Of a stretch of 40,629 bases of DNA, positions 7,143 through 40,560 are shown piece by piece; the stretch's first letter is position 1, and each line of letters opens with the position of its first letter. Position numbers and translations under genes: made by a program. Under the pieces are notes generated by a model. The model was given only the letters and a program-made list of their open reading frames with translations. It searched no databases and was not told the origin of the DNA. Origin of the DNA: Nitrospirota bacterium (lineage in GTDB: Bacteria; Nitrospirota; JACRHL01); the NCBI GenBank assembly GCA_029858285.1, contig JAOUFN010000002.1, positions 141,896-182,524 of the forward strand, in the 5' to 3' direction.

Positions 7143-8152
7143 CCGGCGGGCCACAGCCCGGCCAGCCGAAGCGCGGCAAGGACGAACAGTTCCTGATCGA
7201 GTCGCTGACCCCGAATTTCGGTCACTTCATTCGCGTCTCCGAGCTCCTGTACGAGGGGCAGACCGAATTCCAGAAGATCGAGCTGTTCGATTCGCCCCAG
7301 TTCGGCAAGGCGTTGCGCCTCGACAACGTGTTCCAGACCTCGGCGGGAGATGAATATTTCTACCACGAGATGATGGTGCACCCGGCGCTCATCACCCATC
7401 CCAACCCGGAGCGCGTGCTGATCATCGGCGCGGGCGACGGCGGCATGGCCGAGGAGGCCCTCAAGCACAACACCGTGCGCGAGGTGGTGATGGTGGAAAT
7501 CGACGGTCAGGTGGTGGATTTCTCCAAAAAATACCTGGGGGACATCCACCGCGGGGCCTTCGACGATCCGCGCATGCAACTGGTGATCGGCGACGGCTAC
7601 CAATGGGTGATGGAGGCGGCGGAACGCGGCGAGCATTTTGACGCCGTGATCCTCGACCTCACCGACCCCATCGGCCCCAGCCGCCCGCTGTACACGGTGG
7701 AGTATTACGCGGCCATCGCGCGCCTCATCGGGCACACCGGCATTCACGTGCAACACCTGGAAAACCCGGTCACCCGCAAAGAGTTGTTCGCCCAGTTGGT
7801 GGCCAACGTGCGCGCCGTGTATCACCACGTGCATCCGTTGCTGCAATATGTGCCGCTGTACGGCACCCTGTGGTCGTTTTGCAACGCCAGCCAGACGCTG
7901 GACCCGCGCGGCATGTCGCCGGTGCAGGTGGAATCGCGCATCCGCGCACGCGGACTGACGGATCTACAGGTCTACAACGGCGACACCCACCGTGCCGCCT
8001 ACGCCCTGCCCAACTTCGTGCGCACCCTGATGGACAGCGACGCACAGCCGATTCATCTGAATCAGATCGAGCGTTTCGACGCCATCACTGCCGTCTCCGA
8101 ATCCACCGACCACCTGCGCATTATTGTGGGGGGGGACTCCCCCCAGCGGTAG
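7139..8152 (+). CDS. speE: polyamine aminopropyltransferase (spermidine synthase)
   Basis: Transfers the aminopropyl group from decarboxylated SAM to putrescine, giving spermidine; cytosolic. The 337-residue protein has an N-terminal beta domain (FGHFIRVSELLYEGQTEFQKIELFD), the nucleotide-binding GAGDGG (residues 97-102), VEIDGQVVDFSKKYL, and the catalytic segment ILDLTDP with Asp173 and Asp176. The GTG at 7139 overlaps the speD stop. Length is slightly above the usual 280-310. The last codons are unusual: they run through a G8-A-C-T-C6 palindrome that encodes GGDSPQR and the TAG stop, matching the end of hscA in the same frame (see findings). Downstream, 205 bases separate it from the convergent hemL. 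No arginine or ornithine decarboxylase gene lies in the window. Confidence 0.95.
   Translation: MTGGPQPGQPKRGKDEQFLIESLTPNFGHFIRVSELLYEGQTEFQKIELFDSPQFGKALRLDNVFQTSAGDEYFYHEMMVHPALITHPNPERVLIIGAGDGGMAEEALKHNTVREVVMVEIDGQVVDFSKKYLGDIHRGAFDDPRMQLVIGDGYQWVMEAAERGEHFDAVILDLTDPIGPSRPLYTVEYYAAIARLIGHTGIHVQHLENPVTRKELFAQLVANVRAVYHHVHPLLQYVPLYGTLWSFCNASQTLDPRGMSPVQVESRIRARGLTDLQVYNGDTHRAAYALPNFVRTLMDSDAQPIHLNQIERFDAITAVSESTDHLRIIVGGDSPQR
8129..8151 (+). repeat. G7-A-C-T-C6 palindromic element, copy at speE end
   Basis: GGGGGGGACTCCCCCC followed by AGCGGTA. It differs at two of 23 positions from the copies at 40314-40336 and 40352-40374 (judged against GCGGTA there). It lies inside the last codons of speE and supplies the TAG stop. 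Confidence 0.7.
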
Positions 8153-8357
8153 CCAAGGCGGTTGCAGGGTTGTGGCCCTCTGACGGGCCTCCACGCCCGG
8201 AGCACGCGGGGGGTCTCTCTGTTCCCCAAGTCACGCCGGGGGCGGACAAGACGGGCAACTGTCCGTCTTCCCCCCTGTTTTCCCGCCGTCCCGCAGGAAT
8301 ATTGTGCTGTCCGCCCTGCGGCTCTGCCTGCGGATGGTCACATGCCGACGACCGCCG
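8153..8357. other. convergent gap between speE and hemL
   Basis: 205 bases between two genes that end toward each other. On the plus strand AAGACGG and CCGTCTT around 8248-8270 form a 7-bp stem with an 8-base loop, followed by C- and T-rich sequence ending CTGTTTT; this may terminate speD-speE transcription. No coding signal was seen. Confidence 0.4.
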
Positions 8358-9653
8358 TTAATGCCCGGGGGGGCTCCCCCCCAGAACCTCGGCGGCGGCC
8401 TGCACGGTGCGGTCAATGTCCTCGTCGGTGTGGGCCAGGGAGATGAATCCGGCCTCGAACTGGGACGGCGCCAGATAGATGCCCCGGTCCAGCATGGCAT
8501 GGAAATATCTGGCAAACAGCTTGGTGTCGCTCTGCACCGCATCGGCGTAGTTGCGCACCGCGCCTTTGCGGAAGTACATGCAGCTCATGGAACCCTGGCG
8601 GTCCAGCCACACCGCTGTGTGGGCATTGGTGGCCGCCCCCTTGAGTCCCGCCGCCAGCCGATTGCCAAGTTTTTCCAGCCGCTCGTACACGCCGGGGCGC
8701 TGAAGCTCGGTGAGGGTGGCGATCCCCGCCGTCATCGCCAATGGGTTGCCGGACAAGGTACCCGCCTGATAGACCGGCCCCAAGGGGGCGATTTTTTCCA
8801 TGATATCGCGGCGCCCGCCGTAGGCGCCCACCGGTAGGCCGCCGCCGATCACCTTGCCCAGGGTGGTCAGGTCCGGGGTGATCCCGCACAGCGATTGGTA
8901 GCCGCCGTAGGCGACCCGGAAGCCGGTCATCACCTCGTCGAAAATCAGCACGATGCCGTGCCCGCTGCACAACTCCCGCAGCCCCTCGAGGAAACCGGTG
9001 GCGGGTTTGACCAGCCCCATGTTGCCCGCCACTGGCTCGACAATGATGGCGGCGAGGCTGTCGCCGTGCTGGCGCACCAATTCACGCACCGCGTCCAGAT
9101 CGTTGTAGGCGCAGGTGAGTGTATTGCGGGCAATGTCCGACGGCACCCCGGCGCTGTCCGGCACCCCCAGCGTGGCAGCGCCGGAGCCCGCCTTCACCAG
9201 CAGGGAATCGCCGTGGCCGTGGTAACAGCCGTCGAACTTGAGGATCAGGTCGCGCCCGGTAAAGCCGCGGGCCAGGCGCAGAGCGCTCATGGTCGCTTCG
9301 GTACCGGAACTGACAAAGCGCACCATCTCCACCGAGGGTACCGCGTCGATGACCATCTCGCCCAAAATGATTTCCAGCTCGGTGGGGGCACCAAAGCTGG
9401 TGCCGTTGCCCAGGGCTTCGGCCAGGGCGCGGCGCACCGGTTCGGCGTTGTGGCCGAGGATCATCGGCCCCCAGGAGCCGACGTAATCGATATATTCGTT
9501 GCCGTCGGCGTCGAACACCCGGGCGCCGTCGGCGCGGGCGATGAAGGGAGGAGTCCCGCCCACGCCCCGGAAGGCGCGCACCGGGCTGTCGACGCCACCG
9601 GGCAGCACACGGGCGGCGCGCTTGAACAGGGATTGGGACTGGGAACGGTTCAT
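8358..9653 (-). CDS. hemL: glutamate-1-semialdehyde 2,1-aminomutase
   Basis: PLP enzyme that converts glutamate-1-semialdehyde to 5-aminolevulinate, the first committed tetrapyrrole precursor in the C5 pathway; cytosolic. It has 431 residues, normal for the family. The N-terminus shows ALPGGV-type [14 protein letters not shown], then [16 protein letters not shown] (PLP phosphate site), [10 protein letters not shown] (Asp239 contacts the PLP ring) and [18 protein letters not shown] with Lys267 as the Schiff-base lysine. ATG 9653 starts the conserved protein; the frame stays open far upstream but that part is not HemL. The C-terminus ends GGSPPGH, encoded by a G7-A-G-C7 palindrome like those at the ends of speE and hscA. 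Its promoter faces away from the divergent dehydrogenase/cob set; tetrapyrrole supply for the cobalamin genes next door is a plausible but unproven link. Confidence 0.96.
8361..8382 (-). repeat. G7-A-G-C7 palindrome at hemL end (variant copy)
   Basis: Minus strand: GGGGGGGAGCCCCCCC followed by GGGCATTAA. It encodes GGSPPGH and the TAA stop of hemL. It is related to, but more diverged than, the copies at the ends of speE and hscA. The flanking GACCGCC (about 8349-8356) is also found beside the hscA copy. Confidence 0.55.
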
Positions 9654-16684: not shown

Positions 16685-17508
16685 GGCCGTCTCATCGACG
16701 TGAGATGGCCAAAACAGCGGTGGCCAAGGGTCCGGTCAGCATTCGGACCGCTTGTGCGGCATTCGTCATCAGTGAAACCTGCTATCGATACCAGGCCAAA
16801 CTGTCCGACGAAAACGCCGAGGTGGCCGACTGGCTGGTCCGACTGACCCACAATCAACGCAACTGGGGATTCGGCCTGTGCTTTCTGTATCTGCGCAACG
16901 TGAAGGGCTATGGCTGGAACCATAAGCGGGCGTACCGGATCTACCGGGATCTGGAACTGAACCTGCGGATCAAGCCGAAGAAGCGCCTGGTACGGGCAAA
17001 GCCGGAGCCGCTACAGGTGCCGGAAGCGATCAACCAGGCTTGGTCCATGGATTTCATGCACGACCAATTGGCCGATGGACGGAGTTACCGACTGTTCAAC
17101 GTGCTGGACGACTACAACCGGGAGGGTTTAACCATCGAGGCGGATCACTCGCTACCATCGGCACGGGTCATTCGTGCCCTGGAGCAGGTCATTGAGTGGC
17201 GGGGAAGGCCAGCATCAATCCGCTGTGACAACGGACCCGAATATATCAGCGGTGCGTTGACCACCTGGGCCAAGCAGATGGGCATCGACATCCAGTACAT
17301 CCAGCCGGGCAAGCCACAGCAGAATGCCTATGTGGAGCGCTACAACCGCACGGTCCGGTACGACTGGCTGAACCAGTACCTGTTCGACTCGATCGCCGAG
17401 GTTCAGGAGTACGCCACCCGCTGGCTATGGACCTACAACCACGAGATGCCTAACATGGCCTTGGGCGGTATCACGCCCAGACAGAAGCTGGCCCTAGTGG
17501 ACCATTAA
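16678..17508 (+). CDS. IS3-family transposase orfB (catalytic DDE half)
   Basis: A 276-residue frame counted from GTG 16678; it is normally made as the C-terminal part of OrfAB. The rve integrase core is intact: first Asp in WSMDFMHDQL, second in IRCDNGPEY, Glu in QQNAYVERYNRTVR, with the K/R residues that follow. An HTH_21-like region (HNQRNWGFGLCFLYLRNVKGYGWNHKRAYRIYRDLELNLRI) precedes it. No stop or frameshift disrupts it. The independent start at 16678 may not be used; an internal ATG at 16705 is possible. Confidence 0.95.
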   Translation: MVRPSHRREMAKTAVAKGPVSIRTACAAFVISETCYRYQAKLSDENAEVADWLVRLTHNQRNWGFGLCFLYLRNVKGYGWNHKRAYRIYRDLELNLRIKPKKRLVRAKPEPLQVPEAINQAWSMDFMHDQLADGRSYRLFNVLDDYNREGLTIEADHSLPSARVIRALEQVIEWRGRPASIRCDNGPEYISGALTTWAKQMGIDIQYIQPGKPQQNAYVERYNRTVRYDWLNQYLFDSIAEVQEYATRWLWTYNHEMPNMALGGITPRQKLALVDH

Positions 17509-18509: not shown

Positions 18510-20312
18510 CTATCGCCGGGGGGCGTCCCCCCCTTGCACAGCGTCGCTGAACATCAGGTCCGCAAGGCGCTGGGTGGCCTCGTCCAGATCTTGCTTGGCG
18601 GCCTTCAGGCTGCTCAGGTCGTCCGCGTCGATAGCGGCGCGCACCCGGTTCCAGGCGCTGTCGATGGCCTTGCGCTCGCCGGCTTCCAGACGATCGCCAT
18701 AGCGTTCCAGGGCCTTCTGTGTGGCGCGCAGCATTTCGTCGGCGGATATCTGGGCCTCTACCAACTGGCGCTTGAGGATGTCCGCCTGGGCGTGGGCCAC
18801 CGACTCCCGCACCATCTGTTCCACCTCGGCGTCCGACACGTCGGCCACCGCCTTCACCTGCACATTGAGTTCGTGCCCGGTGTTGACGTCTCGCGCCAGC
18901 ACCTTGAGGATGCCGTCGGTGTCGATGGTGAACTGCACCCCCACCCGGTGGCTGCCCGCCGGGGCCGGGGCCACCGGCAGGGAGAACCGCCCCAGTGTCC
19001 AGTTGTCGGAAGCCATTTCGCGCTCCCCCTGCAACACATGGATGTTGACGGCGGTCTGGTTGTCCACGGCGGTGGTGAACAACTCCCCGGCCTTGGTGGG
19101 GATGGTAGTGTTGCGGGGGATGATAACGTTCATCAAGCCGCCAAAGGTCTCGATGCCCAGGGACAGGGGGGTGACGTCCAGCAGCAGGGTGTCGGTGATG
19201 CCGCCCTGCAGGATGCTGGCCTGAATCGCCGCCCCCAGGGCGACGGCCTCATCCGGGTTGACGGACTGGTCCGGGGTACGGCCGAACACGCTCTCCACCA
19301 ATCCCCGCACCAGGGGGATGCGGGTGGACCCCCCTACCAGAATCACCGTGTCCACCTGCGCCGCCTTCAAATGGGCGTCGTGCAGGGCCTGCAGGCAGGC
19401 GGAGCGGGTTTCGTCCAGACGGGCCGCAATCAGGCTCTCGAAGGTGGCGCGGGTGAGGCGGGCGGAAAGGCTGAAATCACCCTTCAAAAATGGAATATTG
19501 ATGTCGGTTTCAGTGCGATCAGAAAGCTCGATCTTGGCCTTTTCGGCGGCTTCCTTGAGGCGCGCCGACGCCACCAGATCCCCGGCCAGGTCGGCGGTGC
19601 CACACTGGGCCAGAAGCCAGTTCATCACTGCGCGGTCAAAGTCGTCGCCCCCCAGCCGGGTGTTGCCGGTGGTGGACAGCACCTTGAACACCTTGTCGCG
19701 GATTTCGACGATGGAGATATCAAAGGTCCCCCCCCCCAGGTCGTAGACCGCCACCGTGGCGTTTTCCACCCGGTCCAGACCATAGGCCAGACAGGCGGCG
19801 GTGGGCTCGTTGACGATGCGCTCCACGGTGAGCCCGGCCAGTTCCCCGGCGGCTTTGGTGGCGGCGCGCTGGGCATCGTTGAAATAGGCGGGAACGGTGA
19901 TGACGGCGCGGGTCACCTCCTGCTCCAGATAGCCTTCGGCGTCGGCCTTGAGCTTGGCCAACACCCGGGCCGAGACCTCCTCGGGCCGCCAGGCATTGCC
20001 CCCGGCCACCACCTTGGCGGCCTGATCGCCACGCCCGATCACCGCGTAGGTGCGGGGCATTTCGTCCCCGGCGATCTCCTTGCCCCGTCGGCCCATGAAG
20101 CGCTTGACCGAGGTGACCGTGTCCGCCGGATGCAGGGCCGCCTGACGCAGTGCAGCCACCCCCACCAGAGGCTTTTCGGGATCGTTGTACCCCACCACCG
20201 ACGGCGTCAGACGCAACCCACCGGCGTCCGGGATCACCACCGGCAGGCCCATGTCGATTACCGCCACCACGCTGTTGGTGGTGCCCAGGTCAATGCCAAC
20301 AATCTTGCTCAT
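18510..20312 (-). CDS. hscA: Fe-S cluster assembly chaperone HscA (Hsp70 family)
   Basis: Hsp70-type ATPase that, with HscB, helps release Fe-S clusters from the IscU scaffold. The 600-residue protein has the nucleotide-binding domain (GIDLGTTNSVVAV at 6-18; PAYFNDAQRAATKAAGELAGL; VYDLGGGTFDISIVEI; ILVGGSTRIPLVR) and a substrate-binding domain from about residue 380 (LLLDVTPLSLGIETFGG). HscA rather than DnaK is chosen because hscB and iscA lie directly upstream and because it is about 40 residues shorter than DnaK and lacks the EEVD-like acidic tail. The C-terminus GGDAPRR and TAG stop are encoded by a G7-A-C-G-C6 palindrome. ATG 20312 has AGGCCGGA upstream. Third gene of the iscA-hscB-hscA unit; no ferredoxin gene follows. 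Confidence 0.93.
   Translation of the reverse strand: MSKIVGIDLGTTNSVVAVIDMGLPVVIPDAGGLRLTPSVVGYNDPEKPLVGVAALRQAALHPADTVTSVKRFMGRRGKEIAGDEMPRTYAVIGRGDQAAKVVAGGNAWRPEEVSARVLAKLKADAEGYLEQEVTRAVITVPAYFNDAQRAATKAAGELAGLTVERIVNEPTAACLAYGLDRVENATVAVYDLGGGTFDISIVEIRDKVFKVLSTTGNTRLGGDDFDRAVMNWLLAQCGTADLAGDLVASARLKEAAEKAKIELSDRTETDINIPFLKGDFSLSARLTRATFESLIAARLDETRSACLQALHDAHLKAAQVDTVILVGGSTRIPLVRGLVESVFGRTPDQSVNPDEAVALGAAIQASILQGGITDTLLLDVTPLSLGIETFGGLMNVIIPRNTTIPTKAGELFTTAVDNQTAVNIHVLQGEREMASDNWTLGRFSLPVAPAPAGSHRVGVQFTIDTDGILKVLARDVNTGHELNVQVKAVADVSDAEVEQMVRESVAHAQADILKRQLVEAQISADEMLRATQKALERYGDRLEAGERKAIDSAWNRVRAAIDADDLSSLKAAKQDLDEATQRLADLMFSDAVQGGDAPRR
18511..18533 (-). repeat. G7-A-C-G-C6 palindromic element, copy at hscA end
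   Basis: Minus strand: GGGGGGGACGCCCCCC followed by GGCGATA. It agrees at 22 of 23 positions with the tandem copies near 40.3 kb. It encodes the last residues and the stop of hscA. Nearby, 18472-18484 (CAGCGGCATTCGC) matches the spacer part of the 38-bp repeat at 40292 in 12 of 13 bases. Confidence 0.72.
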
Positions 20313-31920: not shown

Positions 31921-32053
31921 GGAGGTCAGTTGTGGGTTCCGCGCTGGTGGTTCACAGGTCTGCCTCTGGCCGCCCGCCCGACAGCCCGGCGACCCCGGCC
32001 CGCGCATGGCCACATGCCGTGGTTGCGCCGCTTTCGCCCGCCGGGCTTCCCGG

Positions 32054-33385
32054 CTAGCGGTTCATGGTGTCGAGGAAGTCGCGGTTGCTCTTGGTGCGCA
32101 TCAGCTTGTCGAGCAGGAACTCCATGTTTTCCACGGTGTCCTTGGGAGACAGCACCTTGCGCAGGATCCACAGCTTGTTGAGGTCCTCCTCGGGGATGAG
32201 CAGCTCTTCCTTGCGGGTGCCGGACATGGCGATGTCGATGGCCGGGAACACGCGCTTGTCGGCCAGGCGTCGCTCCAGGTGGACTTCCATGTTGCCGGTA
32301 CCCTTGAACTCCTCGAAAATCACCTCGTCCATGCGGCTGCCGGTGTCGATGAGCGCGGTGGCCATGATGGTCAGGCTGCCGCCGTTTTCGATGTTGCGGG
32401 CCGAGCCGAAAAAGCGCTTGGGGCGCTGCAGGGCGTTGGAGTCCAGACCACCGGAGAGGATTTTTCCGGAAGACGGCATCACCGCGTTGTAGGCGCGCGC
32501 CAGACGGGTGATGGAGTCCAGCAAAATAGCCACATCGCGGCCGTGCTCCACCAGACGCTTGGCCTTTTCCAGCACCATTTCCGCCACCTGCACATGGCGC
32601 TCGGCGGGTTCGTCGAAGGTGGAGCTCATGACCTCGGCATTCACCTGGCGCTGCATGTCGGTGACTTCCTCGGGCCGCTCGTCGATCAGCAGCACGATCA
32701 GGTAGACCTCCGGGTGATTGGTGAGGATGCCCTTGGCGATATTCTGCAAAAACACCGTCTTGCCGGTACGGGGCGGCGCCACGATCAGGCCGCGCTGGCC
32801 CTTGCCGATGGGGGTCACCAGATCGAGCACCCGGGTGCAGTATTCCTTGGGGTGATACTCGGTCTTCAGCCGCTCCTCGGGGTAAAGGGGCGTGAGGTTG
32901 TCGAACAGAACCTTGCGCTGCGCCTTTTCCGGGGCGTCGAAGTTGATCTCCGACACCTTCAGCAGGGCGAAGTAGCGCTCCCCTTCCTTGGGCTGGCGGA
33001 TCTGGCCCGAAACCGTATCGCCGGTGCGCAGGTTGAAGCGGCGGATCTGGCTGGGGGAGACATAGATGTCGTCCGGCCCGGCCAGATAGTTGTAGTCCGG
33101 GGAACGCAGGAAGCCAAAACCGTCCTGCAGGGTTTCGAGCACCCCGGCGCCGAAGATCTGGCCACCGGAGGCGGTGTGGGCCTGCAGGATGGCGAAGATC
33201 AGGTCCTGCTTGCGCATGCCGCCGATGTTGGTGATGCCGAGCTTGTCGGCGAACTCGGTCAGCGCCTCCATGCCGAAGCGCTTGATCTCGGTGAGGTTGA
33301 GCGATTCGGCACCGGGCGCAGTCGCGGCGGAGGCGTCGGTCAATGCCTCGGCGTCGGTATCGGTAATCTGGTCAGTGTCTGCCAT
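32054..33385 (-). CDS. rho: transcription termination factor Rho
   Basis: Hexameric RNA helicase that terminates transcription. The 443-residue protein has the RNA-binding domain ([45 protein letters not shown]), P-loop [17 protein letters not shown], Walker [16 protein letters not shown], and the Q/R-loop region. It is about 25 residues longer than E. coli Rho; the extra is an acidic, Ala/Thr-rich N-terminus (first 30 residues). AAAGG stands about 10 bases before ATG 33385. It has its own promoter and a leader of about 330 bases, in keeping with autoregulation known for rho. Confidence 0.97.
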
Positions 33386-38650: not shown

Positions 38651-40249
38651 ATGACACACCCCACGCCGCAACGGATCGCGGCCGAGGTGGCTAAGAGGCG
38701 CACGTTTGCCATTATTAGCCATCCGGACGCCGGTAAAACTACGCTAACCGAGAAACTGCTCCTGGCAGGCGGCGCCATTCAACTCGCTGGCGAGGTCAAG
38801 GCACGAAAATCCCTGCGCCACGCCCGCTCCGACTGGATGCGCGTGGAACAGGAACGCGGCATCTCCGTCACCAGCTCGGTCATGCGCTTCGAATACGCCG
38901 ACCGCACCGTCAACCTGCTCGATACCCCCGGCCACGAGGATTTTTCGGAAGACACCTACCGCACCCTCACCGCCGTCGACAGCGTGATGATGGTCATCGA
39001 CGTGGCCAAGGGCGTCGAGGAACGCACCGACAAGCTGATGCAGGTGTGCCGCATGCGCAACACCCCGGTGCTGACCTTCATCAACAAGCTGGACCGCGAA
39101 GGCAAGGAACCCCTGGACCTGCTCGAGGAAATCGAACAGCGCCTGGGCATCCGCTGCGCCCCCCTGCTGTGGCCGGTGGGCACCGGGCAGCGTTTTCAGG
39201 GCGCCTACGGCCTGCACTCCGGCATCCTGCACCGCTGGCTGCGCACCCCCGACGGACGCAAACAGGAAGACGTGAAAATCGCCCTGGACGATCCGCGTCT
39301 GGCAGGACTGGTGGGGGCCGACGAAGCCAGACTGCTGCGCGACGAGGCCGAACTGGTCACCGGCGCCGCCGATCCGTTTGACGTGGAAGCCTATCTGGCA
39401 GGCCGCCAGACCCCGGTGTTCTGGGGCAGCGCGGTGCAGAACTTCGGCGTGCGCGAACTGCTTTCGGCATTCGTGGAATTCGCCCCGCCCCCGGGCCCGC
39501 GTCAGGCCGTGGAACGCTCCGTGACCCCCACCGAACCGGCGTTCTCCGGCTTCGTGTTTAAAATTCAGGCCAACATGGACAAGGCCCACCGCGACCGCAT
39601 CGCCTTTGTGCGCATCTGCTCCGGCCGCTACCAACACGGCATGAAGGTACGCCACCACCGCCTGGGACGCGACATGGCCATCAACAACGCCACCGTGTTC
39701 CTGGCCCAGGCGCGAGAGTCGGTGGACGAGGCGTGGCCCGGAGACATCGTCGGCATCTACAACCACGGAACCGTTAAAATCGGCGACACATTTTCGGAAA
39801 AAGAACCCCTCAAATTCACCGGCATCCCGCACTTCGCCCCCGACCTGTTCCGCCGCTTCATCCTGCTCAACCCCATGAAAGGCAAAGCCCTGACCAAGGG
39901 ACTGTCGCAACTGGCCGAAGAAGGCGCGGTGCAACTGTTCGTGCCCCAGGCCGGAGGCGGCTACATCCTGGGGGCCGTGGGACAACTGCAGTTCGACGTG
40001 ATCCTGTCACGCCTCAAGGACGAATACGGCGTGGAAGGACAGTTCGAAGCCGTCAGCTACAGCACCGCCCGCTGGGTGGAAGCAGCCGACTCCAAAGCCA
40101 TGGAGGCGTTCAAAACCAAAGCCAGGAACAACCTGGCGGAAGACGGCGAAGGCAAACTGACCTATCTGGCAGACAGCATCTGGTCCCTGCGCCGGGTGGA
40201 AGAAGCCAACCCCGAAATCCGCTTCCTCACCACCCAGGAACTCGCCTAG
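38651..40249 (+). CDS. prfC: peptide chain release factor 3
   Basis: GTPase that recycles RF1/RF2 from the ribosome. The 532-residue protein has G1 [16 protein letters not shown], the RF3-type insert [13 protein letters not shown], switch [12 protein letters not shown]3 [19 protein letters not shown]4 [10 protein letters not shown], and RF3 C-terminal region ([36 protein letters not shown]). Length normal (E. coli 529). ATG 38651 opens the conserved part. Together with prfA and prmC the window holds three genes of translation termination, though in different units. Confidence 0.97.
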
Positions 40250-40292
40250 GGGGGGGCCGGGGAGCCCCGGTGGGCAGCGGGCACGGCCCGCA

Positions 40293-40390
40293 GCGGTATT
40301 CGCGTAAAACCCAGGGGGGGACGCCCCCCGGCGGCATTCACGTAAAACCCAGGGGGGGACGCCCCCCGGCGGTATTCGCGTAAAACCCCC
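40293..40390 (+). repeat. 38-bp tandem repeat with G7-A-C-G-C6 palindrome, about 2.6 copies
   Basis: Units start at 40293, 40331 and 40369. Each has a spacer GCGG[T/C]ATTC[G/A]CGTAAAACCC and a palindrome GGGGGGGACGCCCCCC. Units one and two differ at two positions; the third is cut off after the spacer. The same palindrome with flanking GCG(A/G)TA occurs at the ends of hscA and speE. Confidence 0.85.
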
Positions 40391-40560
40391 GTCACGGCCC
40401 CGTCCATCGCGAAACAGACCGCGCCTTTTCCTCGGTTTTTGTCCCCCTGCCAGTGTCACCGTTCGACGACAAACTATACGTGACGGCTATTCCAGCCGGT
40501 CTCACGCGGGACAAATCCGATCAGTCACTTTCCGCATCACGTGCCGTGCGCACAGCACCT

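Follow-up and report, generated by a model that had tools for sequence, protein, structure and literature searches.

Several unrelated genes of this genome end in the same piece of DNA, a dispersed, mosaic, REP-like repeat that has settled 3' of genes and that has very probably been captured as the C-terminus and stop codon of about ten of them. The window from which this emerged is a stretch of 40,629 nt (C16:141896-182524) of a 2.56 Mb genome that is assembled into 57 contigs and has a GC content of 66%. The copies are dispersed over the genome, lie at gene ends in a preferred orientation, retain a hairpin that is under constraint, and supply both tail and stop in about ten genes. These captures involve speE, hscA, gpsA, nagZ, a HAD hydrolase gene and queG for the main family of the repeat, and hemL, a pmbA/tldD-like gene and yoaA for a second, related family (family II); a sensor kinase gene (C27:45190) and the gene for MazG are candidates that have been tested less.

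Two of the captures lie in the window on opposite strands. The 3' end of speE (8129-8152, + strand) reads GGG GGG GAC TCC CCC CAG CGG TAG and closes the protein as ...IIVGGDSPQR; the captured head spans 8128-8152 and consists of a palindrome (8128-8144), AGCGG and the TAG stop (8150-8152), encoding GGDSPQR-stop. The end of hscA (head at 18510-18534, - strand) reads GGG GGG GAC GCC CCC CGG CGA TAG, with the palindrome at 18518-18533, followed by GGCGA and the stop TAG at 18510-18512, so that the protein ends ...AVQGGDAPRR. The first-pass annotation had described these tails as one element in one frame with one stop, and the sequence confirms this for both genes. In relatives from two other genera, SpeE terminates just ahead of the position of the element head, and HscA carries a 9-residue end that differs from GGDAPRR. 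The HscA homologues that a scan of named genomes yielded were all remote, with about 50% identity. An insertion sequence with an integrase-core (rve/rve_3) transposase gene lies at 16705-17508 (+ strand), near a gene for signal peptidase and about 1 kb away from where hscA ends.

The end of hemL had been read as a variant of the same palindrome. The tail GGSPPGH-stop is present (protein ...LGGSPPGH), but its palindrome, GGGGGGGAGCCCCCCC, belongs to the sister family II, which is also found at the pmbA/tldD-like gene and yoaA. This element occupies 8283-8382 (- strand), with the palindrome at 8367-8382 and the stop TAA (8358-8360) within the element, and its body extends into the intergenic region (GGCATGTGACCATCCGCAGGC); the family II stretch has 12 additional matches in the genome, and HemL of relatives has another end. 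Behind prfC the repeat stands outside the reading frame, in an array at 40250-40431 (+ strand) that starts right after the TAG stop (40247-40249). It comprises the heads CCGGGGAGCCCCGG and GCGGGCACGGCCCGC, then the tandem palindrome that the annotation had reported there, found as two copies of GGGGGGGACGCCCCCC (40314-40329 and 40352-40367), and then the body AGCGGTATTCGCGTAAAACCC, with matches to the covariance model described below at 40274-40341 and 40350-40431. At the 3' end of rho (31997-32056, - strand), a gene assigned via its Pfam Rho domains, the stop TAG (32054-32056) is directly followed by the hairpin GCCGGGAAGCCCGGC (32054-32040) and a family II-like body (CACGGCATGTGGCCATGCGCGGGCC). 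Rho is the terminator factor, and its own gene closes with CTAG before such a hairpin.

The palindrome had been proposed to be a dispersed short element that settled at gene ends and was captured into reading frames. Dispersal, location and capture all stand, the exact core GGGGGGACNCCCCC occurring 29 times in the genome as compared with 0 for a reversed-pattern control; the palindrome, however, is only one part, the head, of a mosaic unit that extends further. Genome-wide, a palindrome scan that allowed two mismatches gave no excess over the control, indicating that the exact core carries the signal. With the prfC array as a BLAST query, 65 places in the genome were recovered. The unit consists of a head hairpin of about N6-ACG-N6 and, after it, a conserved body of 60 nt that begins with (A/G)GCGGTATTCGCGTAAAACCC and continues with TTCATCGCGAA; some copies add a GC stem and a T-run. 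Heads vary in sequence (GGGGGG-ACG-CCCCCC, GCGGGC-ACG-GCCCGC, GGGGGC-ACG-GCCCCC and GCAGGC-ACG-GCCTGC) and keep their pairing despite these changes: 90.6% of cells pair, 28 cells are changed on both sides, none of 500 shuffles reached a covariation as high, and both the number of paired cells and the covariation score clearly exceed those of every slid control. A covariance model built from 30 copies identified at least 93 copies in 70 arrays in the genome, a lower bound given that 150 candidates were scored, and had no match in three relatives that belong to other genera within the same family. The arrays are mosaic and tandem, with, for example, tandem units of 61 bp and of about 100 bp. Neither the window nor any of three array-rich stretches gave a match to Rfam at gathering score. 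Additionally, two longer repeated spacers follow arrays, often at contig ends; these start with GTGTCACCGTTCGACGACAAAC (18 places) or TTGCGTTGCCCTTGCGGGGGGCGG (10 places) and are found at C16:182348 (position 40453 of the window), at C16:63526 and at 16 other places in the examined stretches.

The enrichment at 3' ends that had been suggested from the window holds in the genome-wide check. Using a purpose-built codon-usage gene caller on about 370 kb of stretches around the elements, none of the 93 copies was found within a called gene, and the head faces the stop of a gene in 50 of the 61 arrays whose head-side neighbor is known (p=5e-7). Among the 46 gaps with both neighbors known, 23 are convergent, 21 co-directional and only 2 divergent. 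Furthermore, the majority of arrays begin immediately after the stop codon, mostly CTAG.

Comparison with orthologues in two of the relatives (G001 and G003), which were located by chimeric C-terminal queries, separates genes with an array behind the stop from those with the stop inside the element. In the former, the protein end differs by no more than two residues from that of the G003 orthologue in 22 of 24 genes. In the latter, the 5-10 terminal residues are unalignable to those of relatives in nine genes (SpeE, HemL, HscA, GpsA, NagZ, the HAD hydrolase, QueG, YoaA and the PmbA/TldD-like protein). The consequences for protein length differ among them: an extension beyond the length seen in relatives is found in SpeE, HemL, GpsA, YoaA, the HAD hydrolase and the PmbA/TldD-like protein, in HscA and NagZ a native end of like length has been swapped for the element tail, and QueG (L197:4938-6146 = C4:48437-49645, - strand) stops 26-29 residues short of the C-terminus of its relatives, the element providing GGRPPKALA-stop. 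The earlier statement that the tails are foreign to SpeE, HscA and HemL is thus supported by relatives from two other genera that are without them.

The capture is further illustrated by a common frame. Five unrelated genes (speE, hscA, gpsA, nagZ and the HAD hydrolase gene) share one frame and one stop position, and end in GGxxP(Q/R)R-stop or a close variant. At this position the body of free copies has the codon TAT in 74 of 87 cases and a stop in a single one, whereas the five captured copies have TAG, TAG, TGA, TAA and TAA. The contrast between 5/5 captured and 1/87 free copies (p=1e-7; 3/3 and p=3e-5 for the model matches alone) is inflated, partly by definition, since the captured set was picked for having its stop in the element. 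Not one captured copy reads on through the TAT. This replacement of TAT by a stop fits real translation of the tails, probably combined with selection for an early stop.

Could these similarities have arisen without a captured repeat? In a genome with 66% GC, chance runs of G and C might let three genes end alike, and the two-mismatch patterns are indeed as frequent as in the control, with GGGGGN2-5CCCCC in only moderate excess (158 vs 91 in the control). Nevertheless, this reading has practically no probability left and is already refuted by the conservation of the downstream body and by the model search (93 matches vs 0 in relatives), next to the 29 exact cores against 0 and the single stop position in five unrelated genes. 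That the tails are native C-termini whose DNA has converged is hardly credible either: the HscA and NagZ of relatives also end in 7-9 poorly conserved residues, which accounts for the unchanged length of these two proteins, but the terminal residues of relatives are unrelated in sequence, six proteins are lengthened and QueG is shortened, and the DNA of the tails is that of the repeat. Errors of assembly or base calling in G-runs could likewise produce false reading frames, given that the speE and hscA heads hold runs of 7-8 G whose lengths come from the assembly and that several contigs end in the repeat. We consider this very unlikely, as the heads of NagZ, gpsA and the HAD hydrolase, of the GGGCACGGCCCGC, GGGCACGACCCGC and GGGCGCAGCCCGC kind, have no single long run of G opposite C and still lead to a matching frame and end position.

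A more serious competitor, albeit an improbable one, is that the palindromes are ordinary intrinsic terminators overlapping gene ends by chance. The canonical unit folds into the head hairpin and a 9-bp GC stem followed by U5-C-U2, and a T-run ends 32 of 92 copies. However, about two thirds of the copies are without a T-run, the stem of the putative terminator has 0 pairs changed on both sides, the captured speE and hscA copies consist of the head alone, with 3' regions that fold no better than shuffles, and the repeat sequence itself is dispersed, unlike that of terminators. Folding of whole regions was also not above shuffles. A conserved terminator was therefore rejected as a general feature of the repeat, its stem being without compensatory change; a terminator role, though not a conserved one, may apply to those copies, one third of the total, that carry a T-run.

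The captured repeat that we favor resembles several known systems. Like REPs and BIMEs (GTAG- and CGTC-tagged REPs, PMC3733652; RAYT-REPs, PMC2817692), it consists of short GC-rich hairpins that occur in many copies and as mosaic arrays, and that mostly lie where neighboring genes are unidirectional or convergent, near the 3' end of the upstream gene. In contrast to these, it has a conserved 60-nt body after a variable head and has no copy inside genes away from the 3' end. The tags of the GTAG and CGTC REPs are absent as well, the base before TAG being mostly C and CGTC being confined to the middle of the head. A Y1/RAYT transposase (PF01797) was absent from this genome, as represented by its 57 contigs, and from the three relatives, whereas control genomes were positive. 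Rickettsia palindromic elements (RPEs) are palindromic repeats that are translated within unrelated proteins; they sit inside reading frames, whereas here gene ends alone are affected.

Capture as such is a known type of event. GTAG REPs, most of which lie near 3' ends, often give flanking ORFs their TAG stop (Di Nocera et al., 2013; PMC3733652). In enterobacteria, RU-1 is similarly fused to the 3' end of genes that have lost their normal stop, which is replaced by a new one arising by point mutation inside the repeat (Delihas, 2007; PMC2759123); RU-1 differs from the present repeat in its sequence, its length of 127 bp, the small number of cases and the lack of a tie to the stop codon position. 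Likewise, Coxiella QMITE1 and QMITE2 reach into the C-terminal codons of several genes, nagZ among them, and in one strain they lengthen EnhC (PMC5896051). QMITEs possess terminal inverted repeats together with target duplications, neither of which was observed here: the unit begins with the G/C head and ends with ...CTTTTTCTTCCG, and on inspection neither matching ends nor a duplication could be made out, nor an empty site. The annotation had set the repeat apart from the known REP-type elements between genes; the type of event is not new. The novelty lies in the family as such, in a conserved body that is combined with exchangeable heads, in how many captures have taken place in parallel and in the precision relative to the stop codon in two genera.

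The sequence statistics show that copies and arrays settle 3' of genes with the head towards the stop, very often directly behind (C)TAG. In about ten genes the original stop was lost, whether through an insertion at the stop or ahead of it or through a deletion afterwards, so that the ribosome would read into the head and the element provides the last 3-10 residues and the stop, as the differing ends of relatives show. In the commonest frame, the TAT of the element appears to have become TAA, TAG or TGA, closing the frame, plausibly under selection for a prompt stop. Spread was probably by copying of the REP or MITE type, by an enzyme that is now lost or goes unrecognized, in addition to tandem and mosaic growth of arrays. 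Persistence is probably due to a hairpin just behind the stop being tolerated, or slightly advantageous as a structure of the mRNA 3' end. E. coli REPs within 15 nt of the stop codon lower translation (reported in PMC12306157), and an effect of that kind is conceivable here for a hairpin that follows the stop immediately. About ten parallel cases of a repeat turned protein end, with relatives that lack the tails and a recurrent point mutation that closes the frame, represent a clean natural series of how non-coding repeats turn into coding sequence.

The junctions between genes and heads also show a marked bias in stop codon identity. The stops at 41 head junctions are TAG in 29, TAA in 9 and TGA in 3 cases, as compared with 63, 54 and 137 among 254 other genes of the same stretches. 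TAG is accordingly overrepresented (71% vs 25%, p=2e-8), a conservative contrast because the background of 254 still includes speE, hscA and rho; CTAG, which makes up 21 of the 29 TAG junctions, is found at 21/41 vs 21/254 (p=4e-10), and TGA is rare before the hairpin (7% vs 54%, p=5e-9). A scan for perfect stems at stop codons gave a modest excess (11/41 vs 12/270), and only a modest one because many heads are imperfect. Two simple explanations of the bias were considered and found unsupported. An element carrying its own TAG finds no support in arrays away from genes, which are without TAG save for one CTAG at C30:90768, and insertion at pre-existing TAG stops finds none in the repeat-free G001 orthologues of TAG genes, 8 of 18 of which end in TAG vs a background of 18 of 41. 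Thus, neither a TAG-bearing element nor a prior TAG target is demonstrated.

A divergent form of the repeat occurs in G003, with 20 related heads vs 0 in the control; no related heads were found in G001 and G002. Seven arrays of G003 start 0-3 nt after a stop codon, TAG or TAA, and in one more the stop is inside the head. Moreover, three of these arrays stand behind orthologues of genes that bear the repeat here, namely rho, the gene at C56:26492 and the gene at C40:76424; the G003 rho was recognized by its matching end ...FLDNMNR and also has the head hairpin at its stop. In two genera, and in part at orthologous genes, heads stand 0-3 nt behind (C)TAG and hardly ever behind TGA, which raises the possibility that the stop codon as such determines placement, although we regard this as doubtful. 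If it were so, stop codons would be the target of a transposition system, or selection would couple a hairpin behind the stop to stops read by RF1. The tight link between 3' hairpin and stop identity in two genera may have effects on termination, on the decay of mRNA or on insertion targeting. An unrelated repeat is present in G001, which starts with CAGGCTGTTGAAAA directly after CTAG and lies mostly at gene ends (L289:1761, L281:2729 and L291).
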